Part shown: piece by piece, positions 15,883 through 27,328 of the stretch
Numbering within the stretch: position 1 is the stretch's first letter
Layout: each line of letters starts with the position of its first letter
NCBI RefSeq assembly: GCF_003073375.1
Contig: NZ_CP029002.1
Location: forward strand, 1,226,001 to 1,290,000
Direction of reading: 5' to 3'
Origin: Lysinibacillus sp. 2017
GTDB taxonomy: Bacteria > Bacillota > Bacilli > Bacillales_A > Planococcaceae
Length of the DNA: 64,000 nucleotides
Notes under the pieces: generated by a model
The model's database searches: none
What the model saw: only the letters and a program-made list of their open reading frames with translations
What the model was told of the DNA's origin: nothing
Made by a program: the position numbers and the translations under genes

Positions 15883-15931
15883 TAGAAGAAAGGAATTGTG
15901 AGGATTGAATTTAAAACAAAGGGTTGATTTA

Positions 15932-18900
15932 ATGACACCAGATTATAATTTGAAAAGTAATGAAAAACATCTATTACCGATCGATCGAACGCAACTGTTG
16001 ACGAATGAGGAGAAACAATTATATCTAGCGTTAAATCAGACGAAAGCATCTTATGAAAAAGAGAAAACTATACCGGAGATGTTTTATCAATCTGCAGCAC
16101 AGTTTGCTGAAAGAATTGCATTGTCTTTCGATGGTGGGGTCATGACTTATCGTCAACTAAATGAACGTTCGAATCAAATTGCACATATGTTAATCGAAAA
16201 TGGACTACAAAAAGGGGATTATGTTGCCATTCTCATGGAACGTAGCAAGGAGACGATACTCAGTCTGTTAGGCATTCTGAAGGCGGGAGGGGTATATGTT
16301 CCGATTGATCCAAGTTATCCAAAAGAACGCTGTCATTACCAGTTAAATGATACAAGTGCTCCGTTTATCTTGACGAAAAAAGAACATACTCATTTACTTG
16401 ATGATTTACCACTTATCGATTCTAACTCCCGCAATGTGTTGATATTAGACGGCACGGAAACAACGTTTTTTAAAGAAAATATCAATGCCCATGTCGCATC
16501 AACCGATCTAGCTTATATCATTTATACATCAGGATCAACGGGCAAGCCGAAAGGAACGATGCTCAGACATGATGCAGTTATCAACTTAATAACAGAGCAT
16601 CAAAGAATTTATCAATCCACTGAGCAGGATGTCTATTCTCAATTTATCTCCTATAGTTTTGATCCTTCAATCACTGAAACGTTCACTGCTTTTTTCTCCG
16701 GTGCTAGATTACATATGCTAACAAGTATAGAACGCGTATCTATCGAGGCTTTTGCTGATATGATCAAGCGTGAAAAAGTTACAGCGGCAACAGTACCAAA
16801 TGCTTTCTTTACACAGTTAGCTACTCATCTTCCAAGGGAGTATAAGAATTCATTGAAATCGTTAAAATACTTGTCTGTTGGCGGAGAAGCGTTAATGCCT
16901 GCTATTTTACAAAAGTGGCAAGAAAAGTTCGGAATACATACGGAAATTGTGAATGTATATGGACCGACAGAATGTACAGTATTGTCTTCCTATTACAAAG
17001 TGGACAAAGAAGTAAAAGACAGTCAATCAAGTATTCCAATTGGCAAACCGATTGCAAATTACGAAATGTATATTGTGAATACAGATGGTCAGCTTTGTCC
17101 ACCCAATGTAATAGGAGAATTATGTATTGCAGGAATCGGCTTAGCTGATGGCTATTTAAACCAGCCTAAAATTACGACGGAAGTATTTGTCCCTCATTTA
17201 TTTTCAGATGATCCTAAAAAACGGATGTATCGAACAGGAGATTTAGTGCGTCTATTACCAAGCGGAGTAATTGAATTTGTGGGTCGCAAAGATTCTCAAA
17301 TCAAGGTGAGAGGATTTCGAATCGAGCTAGGGGAAATTGAAGCCGTGTTAAGTAATCACCCGAGTATACAAGAAACAGTGATTCTCGCGAAGAAAAAGGC
17401 AGATGGAAATAACAGCTTATTTGCTTTTTATACAGTAACAGGTGGTACACAACTAAAACAAGATGAAATCAGGGGGTATTTAGCAAGCAATCTACCAGAA
17501 TATATGGTACCGGAGCGCTTGATTGAAATGCAAGAAATGCCATTGTCCGCCACTGGTAAAATAGACCGAAAACAGTTAGCTGAAATAGATGTAGCAGTCT
17601 CTTTCACAAGTCATTATGATGCGCCCGAAAATGATATACAGCTTATGTTAGCTAATGCTTGGGAACATGTACTTGGTATTACGCGTGTCGGAATTCATGA
17701 TAATTTCTTTCATAGTGGTGGACATTCGCTCAAAGTACTGGAGATTCTTGTCCAAGTAAAAAAGCATGTGCCATTTTTAAAAATACAAGACTTTTTCCAA
17801 TACCAAACCATTGCAGAACTAGATACGTATATAAGTAATTATCAGCCTGAGCATAATGATACGACTAAACGAACAACTGACTATGTATTGAAGGATTTAA
17901 TGGAACCAAATGCTCTACCAGTCGATCCAACCACAAAACCTTTGCCAATGAACACGGTGCTATTAACTGGGGCAACAGGCTACTTAGGAAGTCATGTATT
18001 ATATGAACTCTTGAATAAAACGAATGTACATGTATACTGTTTAATCAGACAAAATTCACACGGAACACTGGATGAAAAATTGAAAGAAAGTATGCAGTAT
18101 TATTTTGGTGATGCCATTGTCCCAATAATAGATAAGCAGGTCACGGTTATACAAGGTGATTTGGGTAAAAAAGCGCTAAATTTATTAGTTGAAGACGAGC
18201 ACAAACTTATTGAAGAAATCGATGCGATTATTCATTGTGGTGCCGATGTACGACATTTCGGCGCAGCTAATCATTTTCATGATGTCAATATTGAAGGAAC
18301 TCGGTATTTACTTGAGCTGGCGAAACGTAAAGCCGGTATTCATTTTCATCACGTTTCAACAATTGGCATTCCTGAAGAACTTGCTGCAAGTCAATGGGGA
18401 CATGCCCAAGAGTATGGTGATTTTGATTATGATGTTACGCTGGAAAATGTTTATAACCAAAGTAAGCTAAAGGCTGAAAATATTGTGAGAAATGCTGGGA
18501 TGGAACAGATACCGGTAACAATTTATCGAGTGGGAAATTTAACTTGTCATTCTGAAACAGGGAAATTCCAACGTAATATGGATGATAATGCTTTTTATCG
18601 CATGATTAAATCAATGCTATATTTAGGCAAAACACCAGAAGCAAACTGGTATGTTGATTTTACACCGATTAATTATGCAAGCCAGGCGCTTGTTGCATTA
18701 GCTCGCCAACCACAATCAAACGGGCATATTTTCCATGTGTGTAACCCTGTACCGCTGAGATATCTAGATTTTATTGAAGATATAAAAGAAATTGGCTATG
18801 AGTTAGAAATTGTATCGGCAGAAGAATATGAAAAATGGCTATTGCATGGGGATCATCCAAAAGAGTTACAAGATTATTTAACCTTAGCAATTGCTCAGCT

Positions 18901-19078
18901 TGAAGGCGATGGAGCAAGTGATTCACCGTTTATATTTAATAGTAATAAGACGCAGGAATTTCTAAAGAACACAGATGTCATATGCGCAGAGCCAAACCCC
19001 GATTTTCTCTGGACAATGATTAAATATGGAATTGAAATGGGCTATTTTCCAAAGCCAAAGCTAGTAGGCGTTAGGTGA
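15932..19078 (+). CDS. NRPS-like adenylation-thiolation-reductase (A-T-R) enzyme
   Basis: About 1048 residues with three domains. Adenylation (about 45-545): IIYTSGSTGKPKG (A3), FDPSITETF (A4), VYGPTECTV (A5), YRTGDLVR (A7), the A10 lysine in ATGKIDRK. Thiolation (about 560-640): DNFFHSGGHSLK with the Ser that takes phosphopantetheine. Thioester reductase (about 670-1045): LLTGATGYLGSHVL, then YNQSKLKAE (YxxxK). There is no condensation domain. Such enzymes activate one acid, hold it as a thioester and release it reductively as an aldehyde or alcohol, as fungal Lys2 does. The Asp in FDPS fits an alpha-amino acid substrate. ATG 15932 has AAGGG eight bases upstream; TTG 15905 is an alternative. 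Confidence 0.9.
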   Translation: MTPDYNLKSNEKHLLPIDRTQLLTNEEKQLYLALNQTKASYEKEKTIPEMFYQSAAQFAERIALSFDGGVMTYRQLNERSNQIAHMLIENGLQKGDYVAILMERSKETILSLLGILKAGGVYVPIDPSYPKERCHYQLNDTSAPFILTKKEHTHLLDDLPLIDSNSRNVLILDGTETTFFKENINAHVASTDLAYIIYTSGSTGKPKGTMLRHDAVINLITEHQRIYQSTEQDVYSQFISYSFDPSITETFTAFFSGARLHMLTSIERVSIEAFADMIKREKVTAATVPNAFFTQLATHLPREYKNSLKSLKYLSVGGEALMPAILQKWQEKFGIHTEIVNVYGPTECTVLSSYYKVDKEVKDSQSSIPIGKPIANYEMYIVNTDGQLCPPNVIGELCIAGIGLADGYLNQPKITTEVFVPHLFSDDPKKRMYRTGDLVRLLPSGVIEFVGRKDSQIKVRGFRIELGEIEAVLSNHPSIQETVILAKKKADGNNSLFAFYTVTGGTQLKQDEIRGYLASNLPEYMVPERLIEMQEMPLSATGKIDRKQLAEIDVAVSFTSHYDAPENDIQLMLANAWEHVLGITRVGIHDNFFHSGGHSLKVLEILVQVKKHVPFLKIQDFFQYQTIAELDTYISNYQPEHNDTTKRTTDYVLKDLMEPNALPVDPTTKPLPMNTVLLTGATGYLGSHVLYELLNKTNVHVYCLIRQNSHGTLDEKLKESMQYYFGDAIVPIIDKQVTVIQGDLGKKALNLLVEDEHKLIEEIDAIIHCGADVRHFGAANHFHDVNIEGTRYLLELAKRKAGIHFHHVSTIGIPEELAASQWGHAQEYGDFDYDVTLENVYNQSKLKAENIVRNAGMEQIPVTIYRVGNLTCHSETGKFQRNMDDNAFYRMIKSMLYLGKTPEANWYVDFTPINYASQALVALARQPQSNGHIFHVCNPVPLRYLDFIEDIKEIGYELEIVSAEEYEKWLLHGDHPKELQDYLTLAIAQLEGDGASDSPFIFNSNKTQEFLKNTDVICAEPNPDFLWTMIKYGIEMGYFPKPKLVGVR

Positions 19079-19761
19079 TGCCGAATTCTGAGGCCATAAA
19101 AAGGGAAATCCACTTATTCGCTCTTCCTATTGGTCCTCAATTATTGCAATGGGAATGGCGTGCATTCTTAATAAAACTTCCACATGAAGAACAAAATAGG
19201 ATTCTGAAGTACAAGCATTGGCAGGACCGGCAGCGAGCATTGTTAGGGAGCGCACTAGTAAGATGGACAATCCGAACATTTACAAATCTTCAACATATAC
19301 AAATTGCTCGTGATAAAACTGGCCGCCCATATCTTGTTGGCGAAAATCATTGGAAGGGCGATTTTAATCTTTCACATTCTGGTGAGTGGATCGTTATGGC
19401 TATGACCAATGATGGCCATGTTGGGGTTGATGTTGAAAAAATTGCTCATTTTAATGAAGAGGTAATGGCTTATGTTATGTCAGAGGCAGAAATTAATTTG
19501 ATCAATGAAAAGTCTAAGCAAAACCGAATAAACTCGTTTTATGAGCTATGGACAAAGAAGGAGGCTATTTATAAAACGGGGCTATTTTCAGATGTAATCG
19601 CCAAGTCATTGGATACGGTAGAATTGACAAGTAAGCATAAAGACGTTCATACACAATTGTTTTATGTTGACTCGGAACACCCTATTTCTGTATGTTGGGA
19701 CAAAGTGCTACCAGCAGTTACACCATTAATAATCTTGAACAGAAATCAGCTCGTATATTAA
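19078..19761 (+). CDS. Sfp-type 4'-phosphopantetheinyl transferase
   Basis: About 227 residues. The family motifs are clear: GVDVEKI (Mg-binding Asp and Glu) and FYELWTKKEAIYKTG (WxxKEA), plus FNLSHSGEW. It transfers phosphopantetheine from CoA to the serine of carrier domains. The start overlaps the upstream stop as TGATG (a GTG at 19075 is also possible), so it is translationally coupled to the A-T-R gene and probably activates that enzyme's thiolation domain. This mirrors the Lys2/Lys5 pairing. Confidence 0.92.
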   Translation: MPNSEAIKREIHLFALPIGPQLLQWEWRAFLIKLPHEEQNRILKYKHWQDRQRALLGSALVRWTIRTFTNLQHIQIARDKTGRPYLVGENHWKGDFNLSHSGEWIVMAMTNDGHVGVDVEKIAHFNEEVMAYVMSEAEINLINEKSKQNRINSFYELWTKKEAIYKTGLFSDVIAKSLDTVELTSKHKDVHTQLFYVDSEHPISVCWDKVLPAVTPLIILNRNQLVY

Positions 19762-19876: not shown

Positions 19877-20512
19877 TTATTGTAATTTATTCACAAATTC
19901 AGCTTCTGTTTTTTCAGTTACTTCTTCAAGTGTGATGCCTTCTTGTAGTTTTACTAGGTTCATTTCACCATTTTGAAAATCAAATACGGCTAAATCAGTG
20001 ATAAGACGATGAACAACACCGCGCCCTGTTAATGGAAGGATGCATTCTTTTTTGACCTTTGATTCGCCGTATTTATTTGTGTGTTCCATAATGACGATTA
20101 CTTTCTTTGCACCTACGACTAGATCCATAGCACCGCCCATGCCTTTAACTACTTTTCCTGGAATCATCCAGTTGGCAAGATCGCCTGCTTGTGAAACCTC
20201 CATACCGCCTAGAATGGCTAGGTCTATATGGCCTCCACGGATCATGGCAAAGCTACTAGCACTATCGAAGTAAGCAGCGCCTGGTCTGGCTGTTACAGTT
20301 TCCTTACCTGCATTTATGAGATCTGCGTCCACTTCTTCTGCTGTAGGGTAGGGGCCAATACCAAGTAGGCCGTTTTCAGATTGTAAAAAGACGTCGATGT
20401 CTGCAGGAATTTCGTTGGCAATGAGAGTTGGTAAGCCGATTCCTAAGTTCACGTACATGCCGTCCTCAATTTCTTGAACAGCAGTTTTGATAATCTTTTT
20501 GCGTGCATCCAT
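19877..20512 (-). CDS. scoB: 3-oxoacid CoA-transferase subunit B
   Basis: A 211-residue beta subunit. The catalytic glutamate region is [12 protein letters not shown], and [11 protein letters not shown] and [14 protein letters not shown] are typical of the SCOT/AtoA family. With subunit A it moves CoA from succinyl-CoA (or acetyl-CoA) to acetoacetate, giving acetoacetyl-CoA. The start overlaps the end of the A subunit gene (TAATG). Placed beside HMG-CoA reductase and lyase genes, it would activate the acetoacetate those enzymes release. Succinyl versus acetyl donor cannot be told from sequence here; atoA is the alternative name. Confidence 0.9.
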
Positions 20513-21210
20513 TAGTTTTCCCCCCTTAGCATTATGCGTTCAATACGTTTTTCAAAATGAGGGCTATGAATAATTCGTTGAACATAAACGCCCGGTAAGT
20601 GAATTTCATCTGGATCTAGTTCACCGATTTCGACCAGCTCTTCAACTTCGACAATTGTAATTTTCCCAGCAGTAGCTACAAGTGGGTTGAAATTACGAGA
20701 GGTTTTACGAAACAGTAAGTTGCCTGATGGATCGGCTTTCCAGGCTTTTACAAGAGCAAAGTCACCTTGAATGGCCTTTTCAAGGATATATGTTTTTCCA
20801 TCAAATTCTTTTGTTTCTTTTCCTTCTGCGACGAGCGTTCCGACCCCTGTGGCTGTATAAAAGCCTGGAATACCGGCACCTCCTGCGCGGAGTCTTTCAG
20901 CTAATGTGCCTTGAGGTGTTAGTTCAACATCTAATTCACCAGATAAAAATTGTTGCTCAAATGTTTTATTTTCGCCTACGTAGGAAGCAATCATCTTCTT
21001 GATTTGACGATTTTTTAGTAGTAAACCGAGACCGAAATCATCGACGCCACAGTTATTGCTAACAACGGTTAAGTCCTTTGTATTTTTTGCTTGAATGGCA
21101 GCAATTAAGTGATCGGGAATACCACAAAGACCAAATCCACCTACTAATAATGTTGCACCATCTTTAATATCTTCAACAGCCTTATCAAAGGATTCAAAAA
21201 CTTTATTCAT
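20512..21210 (-). CDS. scoA: 3-oxoacid CoA-transferase subunit A
   Basis: A 232-residue alpha subunit with the CoA-binding loop [13 protein letters not shown] and the family block [23 protein letters not shown] is eight bases before the ATG. It is the first gene of a two-gene minus-strand operon, followed by subunit B, and lies downstream of the LysR gene on the same strand. The pair converts acetoacetate to acetoacetyl-CoA for thiolysis. Confidence 0.92.
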
Positions 21211-21387
21211 AAAAATAGCCTCCTATAGTTGTTCACACTGACTCAATATCTAGAAATATCCATTTTGGAAAATCCTAAGCTATATGTAATACTTCTATTT
21301 TCGCTCCTTATTTAATTAGGATTCTATCTTATGTATAAAAATCAGTAAAACGAATAAAGAGACTTCTAATTATTCCAAAACGGAATA

Positions 21388-22272
21388 TTAAGGCTTAAAG
21401 GAATCGATATTTTTAATGAAGCTCTGAAGCGCAAATGATTTATAGGAATCTTTTAGAGTAATGAAAACTAATGACCATAACAGTGGTTTTCCTTTTATTT
21501 TGATTAATTTTATTCTTTTATTGACGTTTTTGGTATAGATAGATTTAGGTAGTAAGGTCACGGCGTTATGAGAGGCAGTAAGCTCCAATATTAAATCCCA
21601 TTGAGAGCTTTTGTACAAAATATTAGGGAAGAAACCATGTGCTTTGCAGGTATTAATAATATAGTCATGCAAAGTAAATTCCTCGGGAAATATAATGAAT
21701 TTTTCATTCTTTAATTCTGAAATAGAAATCTCTGTACGATTTGCAAGTGGATGATCCTCGTTTAAAAATATATAAAACTCATCTTCAATAAATGGATAAA
21801 TATCATAATTATCTTTTGTTAATTGTGTTTTTACAATCAATGCAATATCAACTTTTCCATCTGTAACAATTCGCTCTAACTTTTTTGCACCATTTTCGAT
21901 CAGCTCGATTTTAATATTGCCATGTGATTCATAAAATTCTTTCGCAATTTTAGGGAAAAAGAGTGTACCGATTAATTGTGGAATACCTAATAAAATACTT
22001 CCGTATTCACCATTTTTCGTTTGATTAATAGAGAGATTCAAATCATTGACGGAATTAATAATTTCACGGCCTTGTTGATAAACGATCTTGCCGATATCCG
22101 ATAAATGTAAATTATTTTTAATCCGAACGATCAGCTGGCTTCCGAAATGTATCTCCAAACGTTTCACACTTTTACTTAAAGATGATTGAGTAACATACAT
22201 TTCTTCTGCAGCCTTCGTAAAACTTCCCTGGTCTACAACTTTAATAAAATTTTTCAAATCCCTTATTTCCAA
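21388..22272 (-). CDS. LysR-family transcriptional regulator
   Basis: About 294 residues. The N-terminal winged helix reads MEIRDLKNFIKVVDQGSFTKAAEEMYVTQSSLSKSVKRLE, the standard LysR start, followed by a two-lobe ligand domain (SILLGIPQLIGTLFFPKIAKEF). A TTG at 22270-22272 after AAGGGG gives this N-terminus; the ATG at 22296 adds eight unlikely residues. It sits between scoAB and the mevalonate genes, and a strong inverted repeat lies just upstream. It likely controls one or both operons in response to mevalonate or a product; this is inference. Confidence 0.88.
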   Translation of the reverse strand: MEIRDLKNFIKVVDQGSFTKAAEEMYVTQSSLSKSVKRLEIHFGSQLIVRIKNNLHLSDIGKIVYQQGREIINSVNDLNLSINQTKNGEYGSILLGIPQLIGTLFFPKIAKEFYESHGNIKIELIENGAKKLERIVTDGKVDIALIVKTQLTKDNYDIYPFIEDEFYIFLNEDHPLANRTEISISELKNEKFIIFPEEFTLHDYIINTCKAHGFFPNILYKSSQWDLILELTASHNAVTLLPKSIYTKNVNKRIKLIKIKGKPLLWSLVFITLKDSYKSFALQSFIKNIDSFKP

Positions 22273-22296
22273 AATAACTAACCCCTTCACGTTCAA

Positions 22297-22329
22297 ATAT
22301 AACTAATTATTATAAATTATTAGTTATAT
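22297..22329. promoter_or_regulatory. inverted repeat, candidate LysR operator
   Basis: ATATAACTAAT and its exact reverse complement ATTAGTTATAT, 11-base arms separated by 11 bases, 25 bases upstream of the LysR start. Its position suits autoregulation and control of the divergent operon. Confidence 0.5.
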
Positions 22330-22520
22330 AGTGTACGATATCATATTTGGGAGGGAAAGATTTTATTAAAATCTAAAGACTTGAGCACAGGATTAAGCCG
22401 ATGAAGAGATATACGCGTAGTTTTCAACAAAATTGCATTAGAAACATATGGGATTGACGGATACAGCACATTCATACTATAGGGTAAACAAGGGTGATTA
22501 TTTCCTAGAGAAGACAAAAT

Positions 22521-22575
22521 TTTTTTATAGAAAATATTGATTCTATAAAACGTTTTACTATTTCTCTATAAAAAA
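22521..22575. promoter_or_regulatory. AT-rich imperfect palindromic region before the XRE gene
   Basis: TTTTTTATAGAAA and TTTCTCTATAAAAAA face each other with a TTCTATAAAA element between them, about 50 bases before the XRE-cupin start. Possible operator and promoter for that gene; no firm -35/-10 call. Confidence 0.35.
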
Positions 22576-22622
22576 ATACAATAGCAGTAAGTGAAAAATA
22601 CGAAAAGGTCGTGTTAATCTAA

Positions 22623-23171
22623 ATGAATTTAGTAGAAGTAGGTTCAAAAATTAAGCAAATGCGCAAAAAATCGAAAATGTCTCAGTTGGAACTAGCAGAT
22701 TTAATCGGGCTAACTAAAAGTCATATTTCCAAAATTGAAAACGCTAAAGCAACGCCAAGTCTCGCTACATTATCCAAAATTGCAGGGATCTTCCATGTTC
22801 CAATGGCATGGTTTGTTATACAGGAAGAATTCGATGGTATTTCAATCGTCTCTAAAAAACAACGTGCTGAAACTGTCGAAACAAATGAACTTGGCTATCA
22901 ATATGAACTATTAGCAAATAAATCTTATATGAGTAATATTAATCCTTCGATCGTAACTGTTCATAATGGGGCAGAAAACTTAACTCCCTATCTACATGAT
23001 AATGATGAATTTATTTATGTGATTACAGGAAGCATACTTTTGAAGTACGATAATAAACTATATACATTGGATAAAGGCGATTCTGCGTACTTTTCTGGTA
23101 AAAAGGAACATATTTTCATCAATAATTCTCCCGAAAATTCAAAAGTACTTACAATATACGTAGATGAATAA
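22623..23171 (+). CDS. XRE-family regulator with C-terminal cupin domain
   Basis: A 182-residue protein. Residues 7-62 are a helix-turn-helix of the Cro/C1 type (IKQMRKKSKMSQLELADLIGLTKSHISKIENAKATPSL). Residues 110-180 form a single cupin (LHDNDEFIYVITGSILLKYDNKLYTLDKGDSAYFSGKKEH). This two-domain class often senses a small molecule and controls neighbouring catabolic genes. It directly precedes the HMG-CoA reductase operon on the same strand, with a hairpin between. No strong ribosome site is seen at the annotated ATG, so the start is less certain. Confidence 0.87.
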   Translation: MNLVEVGSKIKQMRKKSKMSQLELADLIGLTKSHISKIENAKATPSLATLSKIAGIFHVPMAWFVIQEEFDGISIVSKKQRAETVETNELGYQYELLANKSYMSNINPSIVTVHNGAENLTPYLHDNDEFIYVITGSILLKYDNKLYTLDKGDSAYFSGKKEHIFINNSPENSKVLTIYVDE

Positions 23172-23247
23172 TTTATCTAGTTAAAACAAAAATATTATCG
23201 AAAATACAATATTTCTATTTACATATAAATAATTCTACTTTATATTA

Positions 23248-23289
23248 GTGTAATACCATTCAACTAAGTTGAATGGAATTACACTTTTT
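23248..23289 (+). terminator. long hairpin with T-run: terminator or attenuator before the mevalonate operon
   Basis: Two 18-base arms (GTGTAATACCATTCAACT and its near-exact complement) with one mismatch and almost no loop, followed by TTTTT. It lies 76 bases after the XRE-cupin stop and 22 bases before the HMG-CoA reductase start. It could end XRE transcripts or regulate read-through into the operon. Confidence 0.75.
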
Positions 23290-23310
23290 GAATTTAATGG
23301 GGGAATACAA

Positions 23311-24567
23311 ATGACATCACGTGTTAAAGGCTTCTATCTACTATCGGTTGAGGAACGCTTACAACTTATTGCAGAAAAATCAAACTTATCAACAGAGGAA
23401 ATAGCTTCTTTAGGAAGCGGTATTTCTTTAGAACTTGCCAATTCTATGGTAGAAAATGTTATCGGACAAATTTCTATTCCATTAGGTGTAGCAGCAAACT
23501 TCAAAGTAAATGGTAAAGACGTATTCATTCCAATGGCTACAGAAGAACCATCCGTTATTGCTGCTGCTAGTAATGCTGCGCGTGCGGCTTATGATTTGGG
23601 AGGGATTTTTACTTCAAGCTCAGGGACTGTCATGCGTGGTCAAATCCAAATTTTAAATATTGAAGATCCTCACGCAGCCAGAGCTAAAATTTTCGAACAT
23701 AAAAATGAAATTATAGAACATTGCAATGAAAAAGATCCAACTTTAGTCCGCTTAGGTGGGGGTGTTAAAGATATCGAAGTGCATCTTATCGAAACGGCTA
23801 AAGAAACAATGGTCGTTATACATTTAATCGTTGATACAAAAGACGCTATGGGGGCAAATGCTGTTAACACGATGGCAGAATCAGTTTCTCCATTAATCGA
23901 GCGTATTACAGACGGAAAAGTAGTACTACGAATTATTTCGAACCTTGCAGATAAACGTATTATAAGAGCTCGTGGCGAATTTTCAGTTGAAATGTTAGGC
24001 GGTATTGAGGTCGCTAAAAATATCGTGAGTGCATATGAATTTGCAGATGCTGATCCATATCGTGCAGCTACACATAATAAAGGTGTCATGAATGGTATTA
24101 CGGCAGCTGTATTAGCTTCAGGTAACGATACACGTGCTGTTGAAGCTGGTGCCCACGCATATGCTTCGCAATCTGGTAGATATCGTTCCCTAACAACATG
24201 GGAAATTAATAAAGCGGGTAATCTTGTAGGGACATTAGAACTACCAATGGCTGTAGGAATTATCGGTGGTGCAACAAAGACACATCCTGTAGCAAAAACA
24301 GCATTAAAAATTATGGGTGTACAAACAGCTGAAGAACTTGCAAGTAACATTGCTGCTGTTGGCCTAGTTGAAAACTTAGCAAGCTTACGTGCACTATCTG
24401 CTGAAGGTATTCAATCAGGACATATGCGTCTTCACGCAAAAAATCTTGCTGTAATGGCTGGTGCAACAGCTGAATTAATAGACCAGGTTGTTCAACAAGC
24501 TGTAGAAGAAAAAGACTTCCGCTACGATCGTATTTTAGAAATTACGAACGCTTTAAGAGGTGAATAA
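23311..24567 (+). CDS. mvaA: class II (degradative-type) hydroxymethylglutaryl-CoA reductase
   Basis: About 418 residues, close to the 428 of Pseudomonas mevalonii HMG-CoA reductase. The four class II catalytic residues are all in place: Glu in ATEEPSVIAAAS, Lys in THNKGVMNGI, Asp in GNDTRAVEAGAH, His in GHMRLHAKNLA; the cofactor loop DAMGANAVNTMAE is also conserved. In the degradative direction it oxidises mevalonate plus CoA to HMG-CoA with NAD. Class II enzymes can also be biosynthetic in cocci, but the lyase and CoA transferase here point to degradation. ATG 23311 follows GGGGG; the longer frame starts inside the hairpin. First gene of a four-gene operon. Confidence 0.93.
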   Translation: MTSRVKGFYLLSVEERLQLIAEKSNLSTEEIASLGSGISLELANSMVENVIGQISIPLGVAANFKVNGKDVFIPMATEEPSVIAAASNAARAAYDLGGIFTSSSGTVMRGQIQILNIEDPHAARAKIFEHKNEIIEHCNEKDPTLVRLGGGVKDIEVHLIETAKETMVVIHLIVDTKDAMGANAVNTMAESVSPLIERITDGKVVLRIISNLADKRIIRARGEFSVEMLGGIEVAKNIVSAYEFADADPYRAATHNKGVMNGITAAVLASGNDTRAVEAGAHAYASQSGRYRSLTTWEINKAGNLVGTLELPMAVGIIGGATKTHPVAKTALKIMGVQTAEELASNIAAVGLVENLASLRALSAEGIQSGHMRLHAKNLAVMAGATAELIDQVVQQAVEEKDFRYDRILEITNALRGE

Positions 24568-24568
24568 A

Positions 24569-25009
24569 ATGGCGCATTCGCAAAGTAATAAAAACAATGA
24601 ACCTAAAGAAAAAAAATTCATTGAAATTCTTGGTGATACAGTTTCTAGTAATCAACTTATTATTTCGATTATTTTAAGTGTCACTGCTAGCCTTTTAGGT
24701 TATGAGTTTGGGCAATGGCTATTCCCTAAATTTGCCGAGGCGAATATGGTCAATTCTTACTCTCTGCTAACAGGTATTGCTGCTATATTAATTATTGTCG
24801 CAATTAATACAACGCTATTCAGACCAAAACGAATACTTCTAGATGATCAATCATCCGCTACTTCAATGAGAGAAGCTTATGAAGATTTAAAATTAGATAT
24901 CGATGAAGAGATTCGCTTAATTCAGGAAGATGCTGTAACGAGAAAAGAACTTGAAGAATTAGGTGTACTAGCAAACATAGAAAGCATGAAAGGAGCAGAT
25001 AAGAAATGA
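24569..25009 (+). CDS. small membrane protein, probable partner of the TctA-like permease
   Basis: About 146 residues. Two membrane helices (about 26-48 and 61-82) are followed by a charged helical tail (SMREAYEDLKLDIDEEIRLIQEDAVTRKELEEL). It starts one base after the reductase stop, with GAGGTG six bases before the ATG, and its stop overlaps the next start (ATGA). It holds the position of TctB in tripartite tricarboxylate transporters, but TctB has four helices and no such tail, so I regard it as an unassigned subunit. Confidence 0.75.
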   Translation: MAHSQSNKNNEPKEKKFIEILGDTVSSNQLIISIILSVTASLLGYEFGQWLFPKFAEANMVNSYSLLTGIAAILIIVAINTTLFRPKRILLDDQSSATSMREAYEDLKLDIDEEIRLIQEDAVTRKELEELGVLANIESMKGADKK

Positions 25010-26361
25010 GTATTTATTTAGTAGCCATGCTCTTTGCACTATTGGGAGCTATCATTTTCACGATTATCGGCCTTATCTCGGGTACAGATGAAACAGCAAT
25101 CATGGTGCCTATTACATTACTAGTCATTTTATTAGGTGCTCCTCCTGAAGGTGTATTTGCCTTCTTCATGGCAGCTGTACTAGCAAAACATTTAACACAT
25201 GCTATTCCAACAGCACTTTTAGGTATTCCTGGAGATACGACTGCTGTACCATTAATCGATCATGCTAACACATTACGTCGCATGGGAATGCCACATGTTG
25301 CCTTACGAAAAATGATTTCTGGTGGTATTCTTGGTGCATTTATCGCTTTACCGACATCAATTCTTTTAGGAAGCTTTTTAGGGCAGTTTGCAGATTTCTT
25401 TAAATCATCATCAGGTATTATTTTCACACTTGCTGCCATTTTAATCGCCTTCTTCTCTAAAGGGAAATGGGCAAGTCTTTTAATCATTATTCCTTTTGCA
25501 TTTTTCATCAAATCTTTAGATTTTATGAGCTTTTCATTACTTGAAAAACACTTATCTATCACATTCTTTTTAGGGATTGCAATCGGTCCAATGTTTAGTA
25601 ATATTTTAATGGCTACTTCGCCAATTGCTAAACATGAGTTAATCAGAAATAAACCGAATGAATATAATCTTGCACCCGAAACAAAAGCATGGAAGGGCTT
25701 TTTCCCTAATCCATTCAAAATTCTATCAAAAGAGCAATCTATCTTTACAGCTATCACAACATTTATCTCATCTTTAACGTTTGTATTCAGCCCAGTAGGT
25801 ATGACATCTTTAATGGGTGAAATTGTCGGCTCTAGAACAAAAGGTGCTTACAAAAAGTCTACAACTAGCTTAACCGTTATGAATGGTGTTACTGAATCTA
25901 CTTATATCGCAGAAGTAATCATTCCATTAATTGCATTCGGTATTCCCTTAAGCCCTGTTGCACTCGGTCCTGCTTCACCATTATTTAATGCGCCACCTGT
26001 ATTTAGTGTTGATCCAATCAATAACTTACATACAATGTTGTCGACATGGGACTTCTTTATATTCGGTTTAATTGGACTAGGTATTAGTGCATTAATCGCT
26101 TATCCATTTTCGATGAACTATGCACGTAAAGCTTCAGTTTTAGTATTAAAATATATTAGCCAAGAAGCAATCGTTGCTATGTTTATTGGTCTTGCCTTCC
26201 TACTTGCTTATAATGAAGCACAATTATTAGGTGTTGTATTAACATTTACTGTTGCTACTGTAGGGGGACTACTGAACCGTATTTTAGGTGTTGGTGCTGG
26301 CGTACAATTCATGGTATTCTATGCTTCAAGCTGGATAATGCTAAAATTATTCGGAATTTAA
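25006..26361 (+). CDS. TctA-like permease, candidate mevalonate transporter
   Basis: A 451-residue polytopic protein (about 10-12 helices). HAIPTALLGIPGDTTAVPLIDHANTLRRMG and the mirrored second-half block ESTYIAEVIIPLIAFGIPLSPVALGPASPLF correspond to the paired Gly/Pro-rich motifs of the TctA family (tripartite tricarboxylate carriers). No TctC-type binding protein is encoded nearby. Because it sits between HMG-CoA reductase and lyase in one tight operon, the natural substrate is inferred to be mevalonate. Known mevalonate uptake in pseudomonads uses other carriers, so this would be a new assignment. Confidence 0.8.
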   Translation: MSIYLVAMLFALLGAIIFTIIGLISGTDETAIMVPITLLVILLGAPPEGVFAFFMAAVLAKHLTHAIPTALLGIPGDTTAVPLIDHANTLRRMGMPHVALRKMISGGILGAFIALPTSILLGSFLGQFADFFKSSSGIIFTLAAILIAFFSKGKWASLLIIIPFAFFIKSLDFMSFSLLEKHLSITFFLGIAIGPMFSNILMATSPIAKHELIRNKPNEYNLAPETKAWKGFFPNPFKILSKEQSIFTAITTFISSLTFVFSPVGMTSLMGEIVGSRTKGAYKKSTTSLTVMNGVTESTYIAEVIIPLIAFGIPLSPVALGPASPLFNAPPVFSVDPINNLHTMLSTWDFFIFGLIGLGISALIAYPFSMNYARKASVLVLKYISQEAIVAMFIGLAFLLAYNEAQLLGVVLTFTVATVGGLLNRILGVGAGVQFMVFYASSWIMLKLFGI

Positions 26362-26381
26362 TGTAAGGATGTGTAGCACAT

Positions 26382-27281
26382 ATGGTACTACCGAAATTTG
26401 TTGAAATTAGAGAGGTTGGTCCGCGAGATGGACTACAAAATGAAAAGGTAATTATCCCGACAGATGTAAAAGTTCAATGGATCAATTTATTGAGCAAAAC
26501 AGGATTGAATTATATTGAAGTAACTTCATTCGTCAGTCCAAAGTGGATTCCTGCTCTAGCAGATCATAATGAAGTTTTAGAACAGATCACACGCAATGAA
26601 AGTATCATTTATGCTGCACTTGTACCCAATCTAAAAGGTGTAGAAGGCGCAGTTAAACAAGGTGTTGATGAAATTGCTCTATTTATTTCATCTTCAGAAG
26701 AACATAATAAAAGCAATTTAAATGCTACGATTGCCGAGTCACTTGAAAATTTGAAAACCGTCGCAGAAATTGCTACTAATGAAGGAATCCCACTCAGAGG
26801 ATATATTTCAACTGTATTTGGAAGTCCATTTGGTGATGATATAAGCATCGAAAAGATTAAAGAAATCATCGACGCTTATATTGAAATGGGCGTGAAGGAA
26901 ATTTCACTCGGTGACACAATTGGTGTTGCAGATCCAGTACAAGTGAAGGAAATCTTGTCAGAGCTATTTAACAACTATGACCCTAAACTGTTTGCACTTC
27001 ATTTTCATGATACGTATGGGCGTGCATTAGCCAATATTTATGCGGCGTTGGAAATGGGTGTGACAAAATTTGATAGCTCAATAGGCGGATTAGGAGGTTG
27101 CCCTTACGCTCCTGGAGCAAGCGGTAACATCTCTACCAATGACCTTGTCAACTTCCTTCATCGACTCAAAATCGAGACAAATATTGATGAAGATAAGTTA
27201 TACGAAGCAACAAACTTTATCCAACAAGCACTTAATAAGCAACTCGATAGTAAAATTTATAAGGTGCAGAGTAGTAAATAA
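26382..27281 (+). CDS. mvaB: hydroxymethylglutaryl-CoA lyase
   Basis: A 299-residue TIM-barrel lyase that splits HMG-CoA to acetyl-CoA and acetoacetate. The N-terminal EVGPRDGLQNE supplies Arg and Asp of the active site, HFHDTYGRALAN the metal-binding histidines, and the signature GGLGGCPYAPGASGN the catalytic cysteine. TSFVSPKWIPALAD is also family-typical. It closes the mevalonate operon and is followed by a terminator. The similar yngG gene of Bacillus subtilis serves leucine/isovalerate breakdown, but none of those partner genes (AMP-ligase, carboxylase) is here. Confidence 0.94.
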   Translation: MVLPKFVEIREVGPRDGLQNEKVIIPTDVKVQWINLLSKTGLNYIEVTSFVSPKWIPALADHNEVLEQITRNESIIYAALVPNLKGVEGAVKQGVDEIALFISSSEEHNKSNLNATIAESLENLKTVAEIATNEGIPLRGYISTVFGSPFGDDISIEKIKEIIDAYIEMGVKEISLGDTIGVADPVQVKEILSELFNNYDPKLFALHFHDTYGRALANIYAALEMGVTKFDSSIGGLGGCPYAPGASGNISTNDLVNFLHRLKIETNIDEDKLYEATNFIQQALNKQLDSKIYKVQSSK

Positions 27282-27294
27282 AATATTTTATTTT

Positions 27295-27328
27295 GAGTGT
27301 AGCTGATGATGGCTACACTCTTTTTATT
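27295..27328 (+). terminator. rho-independent terminator of the mevalonate operon
   Basis: GAGTGTAGC pairs with GCTACACTC around TGATGATG, followed by TTTTTATTTTTT. Confidence 0.92.

Follow-up and report, generated by a model that had tools for sequence, protein, structure and literature searches.

A predicted transferable cassette for mevalonate scavenging in Lysinibacillus sp. 2017

What does a 3-hydroxy-3-methylglutaryl coenzyme A (HMG-CoA) reductase do in a bacterium that carries genes of the methylerythritol phosphate (MEP) pathway? The question is raised by a locus in Lysinibacillus sp. 2017, which we analysed within a stretch of 64,000 nucleotides (the window; NZ_CP029002.1, positions 1,226,001 to 1,290,000) of a genome held in one contig of 3.74 Mb at 99.99% completeness. 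Four co-directional genes at window positions 23311-27281, behind a single predicted promoter, encode a degradative-type reductase, a small membrane protein, a TctA-type permease and an HMG-CoA lyase, and the gene upstream encodes an XRE-cupin protein that is likely their regulator. We read the locus as a transferable cassette for scavenging mevalonate and put the probability of this reading at about 0.8. The sections below describe the genes and the direction of the pathway, the regulator, the occurrence of the cassette in other genomes, and the genes at its left flank.

Cassette genes and the direction of the pathway

The reductase gene (mvaA, 23311-24567, plus strand) encodes a class II enzyme of 418 residues that scores 462 bits against the degradative equivalog model TIGR00532 (curated cut-off 259.95) and 55 bits against the NADPH-type model. 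Among solved structures it matches 6dio best (470 bits), followed by 1qax (448 bits), the structure of the Pseudomonas mevalonii reductase. Residues E79, K257, D273 and H371 occupy invariant columns in an alignment of 13 sequences, in agreement with a first-pass annotation of this DNA that had recognised a class II reductase with all four catalytic residues. Mapped by hand, they correspond to E83, K267, D283 and H381 of the P. mevalonii enzyme, which have the catalytic role there. The reading frame is open from a TTG at 23269, but translation most likely starts at the ATG at 23311, preceded by GGGGG, because several relatives have a stop codon in the extra stretch or no similarity over it. Apart from this shifted start, coordinates and family matches bear out the first-pass positions of all eight genes treated in this report.

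The reductase gene overlaps a gene for a 149-residue membrane protein (24560-25009, plus strand), which in turn overlaps the gene for a TctA-type large permease of 451 residues (25006-26361, plus strand; PF01970, E 7.5e-25; no NCBIfam match). The single membrane transporter annotated previously is thus right as to the permease and incomplete as to the number of genes. The permease is the component shared with TctCBA transporters. The window differs from those systems in that no gene for a TctC binding protein was found among the adjacent genes (the whole genome was not searched for TctC), and in that the small protein, which takes the place of TctB, matches no Pfam or NCBIfam family at E 0.001, TctB included. 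A weak structural model of the small protein (mean predicted local distance difference test score, pLDDT, 69.5; predicted template modelling score, pTM, 0.40) has helices at residues 30-57 and 61-86 and a helical tail, from which we predict two membrane helices and a soluble tail. No solved structure matched the permease. Mevalonate is the predicted substrate of the pair.

The lyase gene (mvaB, 26382-27281, plus strand; 299 residues) was also correctly assigned at first pass: its product scores 431 bits against NF004283 (cut-off 246) and contains the motifs RDG, HFHD and GGLGGCPYAPG. From reductase to lyase the genes lie on one strand, overlapping or close together, with one promoter-like and one terminator-like sequence. 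The latter, read by eye, is a likely intrinsic terminator at 27295-27326 (plus strand), where the stem GAGTGTAGC / GCTACACTC is followed by a T-rich run.

Partners for mevalonate biosynthesis are absent from our searches of the genome. There is one HMG-CoA reductase match, no HMG-CoA synthase match in a profile search, and no mevalonate-type kinase among the GHMP-kinase matches, of which the only two are ispE (TIGR00154) and thrB (TIGR00191). The MEP pathway is represented by dxr (TIGR00243) together with ispE. The cassette copy is the only HMG-CoA lyase over cut-off. Taken together, the single reductase, the missing synthase, the two kinases and dxr point to degradation as the sensible direction, and we infer this direction of flux as a well-supported one. 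The first-pass annotation had argued likewise, naming mevalonate kinases combined with a loss of MEP genes as evidence to the contrary; neither turned up in the genome-wide check.

The opposite direction would have leucine-derived HMG-CoA reduced to mevalonate, for biosynthesis or as overflow, and exported by the TctA carrier. The reductase reaction is reversible and the carrier may work in either direction, which leaves room for such a scheme. It is very improbable in view of the missing synthase and mevalonate-type kinase, the lyase in the same predicted operon, the degradative character of the matching equivalog model, and the cre-like sites in a second lineage of the cassette described below.

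In the degradative scheme that we propose, the TctA permease and its small partner would take up mevalonate with no need of a binding protein. The reductase would run oxidatively, converting mevalonate, CoA and 2 NAD+ to HMG-CoA and 2 NADH, and the lyase would cleave HMG-CoA to acetyl-CoA and acetoacetate. Activation of the acetoacetate would fall to a CoA-transferase, encoded either at another locus or by the neighbouring genes. The mvaAB operon of Pseudomonas mevalonii serves mevalonate degradation and, as commonly described, likewise pairs a class II degradative reductase with an HMG-CoA lyase to convert mevalonate to acetoacetate and acetyl-CoA. The window differs in that the genes for the small subunit and TctA separate those for the two enzymes, and in that an XRE-cupin gene comes first.

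A candidate regulator and its operator

The XRE-cupin transcription factor (22623-23171, plus strand; 182 residues) is the predicted repressor of the cassette. It has the HTH_3 and Cupin_2 architecture of PuuR-type repressors but scores 74.4 bits against the PuuR equivalog, well below the cut-off of 211. Between its gene and the reductase lies a promoter-like pair, TTTACA and TATATT separated by 17 nt (23218-23246, plus strand). Directly downstream of the -10 box is a putative palindromic operator, TGTAAT-N3-ATTCAAC-N3-GTTGAAT-N3-ATTACA (23249-23283), with its core ATTCAAC-N3-GTTGAAT at 23258-23274. A palindrome search at this site returned one match, compared with none in 100 shuffles, and the exact core occurs at a single site in the whole 3.74-Mb genome.

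We followed the pair through 261 genomes of the family (an order-level survey gave the identical 261). A reductase over cut-off is present in 36 of them; a fragment below cut-off in G135 was excluded. The XRE gene adjoins the reductase in 32 of the 35 genomes with a visible flank. Operators were counted as cores with at most two mismatches, and by this count the core precedes the reductase in all 32 of these genomes (identical in 28, deviating at one or two positions in the remaining 4) and in none of the three that lack an adjacent XRE gene (G210, G244 and G248). The operator is also present in G019, where the contig ends ahead of any visible XRE gene. Across the 33 sites, core columns 11-16 and 21-25 are invariant, and at 26 of them, the window's included, the best-scoring promoter-like pair has TTTACA and a 17-nt spacer and stops 11-14 nt short of the core. 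The exact core is found 40 times, spread over 38 of the 261 genomes; 29 of these copies lie a short way upstream of a reductase. The reversed core, used as a control pattern, has one site. As a substitute for the XRE protein in G244 and G248 we considered a 167-residue protein encoded upstream, and rejected it since it looks by eye like a membrane protein.

We predict from this co-occurrence that the XRE-cupin protein and the palindrome are a regulator-operator pair. The position of the palindrome over the transcription start, together with the cupin domain, suggests a ligand-released repressor. We infer the sign of regulation and the inducer accordingly from the layout of the locus: the repressor would sit on the palindrome covering the start and would leave it once the cupin domain had bound mevalonate or a product. 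The palindrome could instead form an RNA hairpin, acting as an attenuator in the transcript leader, as its place downstream of the -10 box would allow; in several relatives the palindrome is even longer, with perfectly matching arms of 20-24 nt. Its core sequence, however, is invariant, its N3 flanks are often non-complementary, and it tracks the XRE gene in the genomes counted above, all of which makes an attenuator highly unlikely and favours a protein operator.

Eleven exact cores lie away from reductases. Two of them (L140, L146) fall inside what we take to be serS. Another, in G204, is followed after about 50 nt by a small-subunit/TctA pair that stands alone, with no reductase (L145:3356-4956).

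Recurrence within and beyond the family

The 36 family genomes with a reductase include none of the 15 congeners, and all 36 have homologues of the small subunit and TctA beside it. We read 20 related loci with up to about 8 kb on either side, three of them shortened by contig ends. Counting the window, these 21 loci contain the XRE-cupin gene in 18 cases, the reductase in 21, the small subunit in 20, TctA in 21 and the lyase in 13. The core genes keep one order and the flanking genes are seldom common to loci; because the same order recurs in otherwise different neighbourhoods, the cassette is more than a chance arrangement. Transfer is suggested by the differing flanks and by the absence from all 15 congeners. 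Base composition was also considered as a sign of foreign origin and gave none, G+C being 36.1% in the cassette and 35.4% in the window. Gene order in relatives, which the first-pass annotation had named as a check on its reading, bears out the linkage of reductase, small subunit and TctA but does not extend to the scoAB genes treated in the last section.

The position of the lyase is more variable. Lyase coordinates compared by hand place it inside the cassette in 20 of the 36 genomes, among them G224, where it is split in two and neither piece reaches the cut-off. Each of the remaining 16 has a lyase over cut-off at another locus. One 4.3-kb contig (L054:1-4284) of G019, a genome of another genus with 8% contamination, spans the stretch between operator and lyase, and its reductase shares 99.5% identity with that of the window; this contig is either a very recent transfer or a stray.

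The family cassettes fall into two lineages, with the XRE gene before the reductase in the main one and after it in the second (G006, G112, G120, G182 and G187). In all five genomes of the second lineage, a cre-like site, TGAAAGCGCTTT with at most one mismatch, precedes the reductase. The second-lineage small subunit has 78 and 80 residues in the two loci read, and the 78-residue version in L053 has no Pfam match. In a reductase tree of 98 rows, the window falls in a Bacilli clade of 25 rows with a Shimodaira-Hasegawa-like approximate likelihood ratio test (SH-aLRT) value of 100, and 24 of these rows are TctA-linked. The second lineage sits on another branch with proteobacterial rows (support only 89), and seven presumed biosynthetic Bacilli reductases lie outside both lineages.

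An even draw of 398 genomes from the class contained 78 with a reductase over cut-off, and for 26 genomes outside the family we examined the locus with about 1.5 kb of flank. Fourteen of these loci (452-475 bits; L179-L189, L191-L193) are of the catabolic kind, with TctA in 12 and an XRE gene in nine. The other 12 (348-436 bits; L194-L205) have no operator, XRE or Tct genes within those flanks. The reductases of L195-L205 are presumed to be biosynthetic, and L194 has a GHMP-type kinase gene, by eye a mevalonate kinase, 3' of the reductase. A genome from the same draw (G604) carries two reductases, of 456 and 428 bits, the first with an operator core and TctA (L191); possibly one is catabolic and the other biosynthetic. 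These results suggest that the 'degradative' reductases of MEP-pathway Bacilli are parts of transferable catabolic cassettes, and a reductase gene alone should therefore not be read as mevalonate biosynthesis.

The comparison with named genomes covered the best 80 of 588 relatives, among which no reductase exceeds 59% identity to the window's. TctA lies near the reductase in 19 of them, 12 with a lyase too, and reductase/TctA/lyase clusters occur in Caballeronia, Pseudomonas, Salinicola, Rhizobium, Brucella endophytica, Nocardia, Brevibacterium and Clostridium bovifaecis. The enzyme of one proteobacterial cassette (L113) is 52% identical to the window's. Other regulators accompany these clusters: a GntR-aminotransferase protein (MocR-like) in the two proteobacterial loci tested, a GAF/PucR-type regulator in Brevibacterium, and a sigma-54 activator in Clostridium. 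Plasmid p2 of Roseomonas mucosa (NZ_CP147882.1, L175) has reductase, small hypothetical protein, TctA permease and lyase in the window's order, but a divergent gene of the pyridoxal phosphate-dependent aminotransferase family, MocR-like in related loci, stands in place of the XRE-cupin gene. A TRAP carrier replaces TctA in Ruegeria pomeroyi, whose reductase is reported to act on mevalonate with NAD (PMC12292504).

The mevalonate-degrading pathway is of a known kind, because reductase/TctA clusters, often including a lyase, occur in some Proteobacteria, Actinobacteria and a Clostridium. Three elements are new, as predictions: the XRE-cupin protein with its operator, the small subunit, and a carrier for mevalonate. 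We found no paper on any of them in the open-access PubMed Central literature. The earlier view that the Gram-positive version is undescribed agrees with that search; as a gene set, it is found in several Bacilli families as well as in the three groups just named.

In 3 of 111 loci, on two haloarchaeal plasmids and one Sporomusaceae contig, a degradative reductase has the genes for AtuA and AtuA_ferredoxin as immediate neighbours (L173:8001-10940, L174:8001-10964, L062:6308-9257). No HMG-CoA lyase was found in these three stretches, and AtuA may take its place there. The open-access PubMed Central literature yielded no paper that connects AtuA with HMG-CoA.

A more specific proposal, which we hold with a little more than even confidence, joins several of these elements. 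The small two-helix protein and TctA would form a dedicated mevalonate importer that works without a binding protein, and the XRE-cupin protein would be a repressor that senses mevalonate and whose regulon comprises a single site. This module would be common to two phylogenetically separate reductase lineages of Bacilli, and AtuA with AtuA_ferredoxin may replace the lyase in haloarchaea and Sporomusaceae. The cassette provides a concrete candidate for a bacterial importer of mevalonate, together with a subunit family that has no annotation. Its regulator and operator are candidates for a pair that responds to mevalonate and may be of use as a sensor.

Several points weigh against reading the locus as a regulated mevalonate-scavenging cassette. 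TctA carriers are best known for carboxylates and work with a binding protein, and none adjoins here. MEP genes were checked in the window genome alone. HMG-CoA synthase-model matches appear in 26 of 37 relatives, 18 of them over a low cut-off, and the window genome has none. All those over cut-off score 20-33 bits in frames of 280-347 residues, the size of FabH, and E. coli in the control list also matches; we rejected them as true synthases and take them to be FabH-type. No cre-like site was found before the reductase of the window or of other main-lineage genomes (31 family genomes; G019 is cut at the contig end). Outside the family, the exact operator is present in seven of the nine Bacilli loci with an XRE gene; of the 14 catabolic loci, two have the operator without a visible XRE gene (one with a mismatch) and three have neither. 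Lastly, the NADH cofactor-helix motif is reported to be Dx(V/L)xxxL (PMC13370337). The window's helix reads D142-P-T-L-V-R-L, with D142, L145 and L148 present and Thr144 at motif position 3. NAD use by the window reductase is likely, with the motif incompletely matched.

The neighbouring LysR and scoAB genes

To the left of the cassette, on the minus strand, lie genes for a LysR-type regulator (21388-22296) and for subunits A (scoA, 20512-21210; TIGR02429) and B (scoB, 19877-20512; TIGR02428) of a 3-oxoacid CoA-transferase. The first-pass annotation had counted the CoA-transferase as part of the locus and LysR as one of two dedicated-looking regulators, and comparison with relatives supports neither assignment. 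LysR scores 269 bits against the CidR equivalog, below its cut-off of 415. Two reductase-less congeners (G158, G159) have a co-directional operon, lysR-CitMHS-AtuA-AtuA_ferredoxin-scoAB (L171:7493-12772, L172:7414-12693; gene families tested in L171), in which lysR, scoA and scoB are 85%, 91% and 88% identical to the window's genes. The composition of this operon suggests a catabolic route for a branched carboxylate with a 3-oxoacid as its end product. Two blastn blocks, 19902-21225 and 21277-22348, are adjacent in the window and about 2.9 kb apart in both congeners, so that CitMHS, AtuA and AtuA_ferredoxin are missing at the window's scoA-lysR junction (21211-21387, minus strand). Because the window keeps the same ends with this segment missing between them, LysR and scoAB are probably the remainder of another operon. 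AtuA has no match in the window genome. The missing segment was more likely lost in the lineage of the window than gained by the others, because AtuA also adjoins a scoA in G152 and G153.

One could still see a single integrated locus here, in which LysR would also control mevalonate use and ScoAB would complete the pathway. The genes are adjacent, and the acetoacetate that the lyase produces has to be activated; a gene for acetoacetate-CoA ligase adjoins the cassette of G006, and scoAB lies near the reductase/TctA/lyase locus of Brucella endophytica. This integrated arrangement is nonetheless unlikely, since scoAB is beside none of the 20 related family cassettes, the congeners keep lysR and scoAB in a different operon with no reductase, and a second scoA copy lies at 343 kb in the window genome. 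LysR has one weak similarity (27%, in L039) beside those 20 cassettes. We rejected LysR and scoAB as parts of the cassette on the strength of the cassette counts and the separate operon; ScoAB may still activate the acetoacetate that the cassette would yield.

Three further features of the window were noted. An AT-rich palindrome with perfect 11-nt arms (22297-22329) lies directly upstream of lysR and is a possible LysR binding site. Beside the right flank is a gene for an erythromycin-esterase family protein (PF05139, 29756-31114). A 1057-residue protein with adenylation, carrier and terminal reductase domains is encoded at 15905-19761, adjoined by a phosphopantetheinyl transferase gene, and possibly serves amino-acid or peptide aldehyde synthesis.

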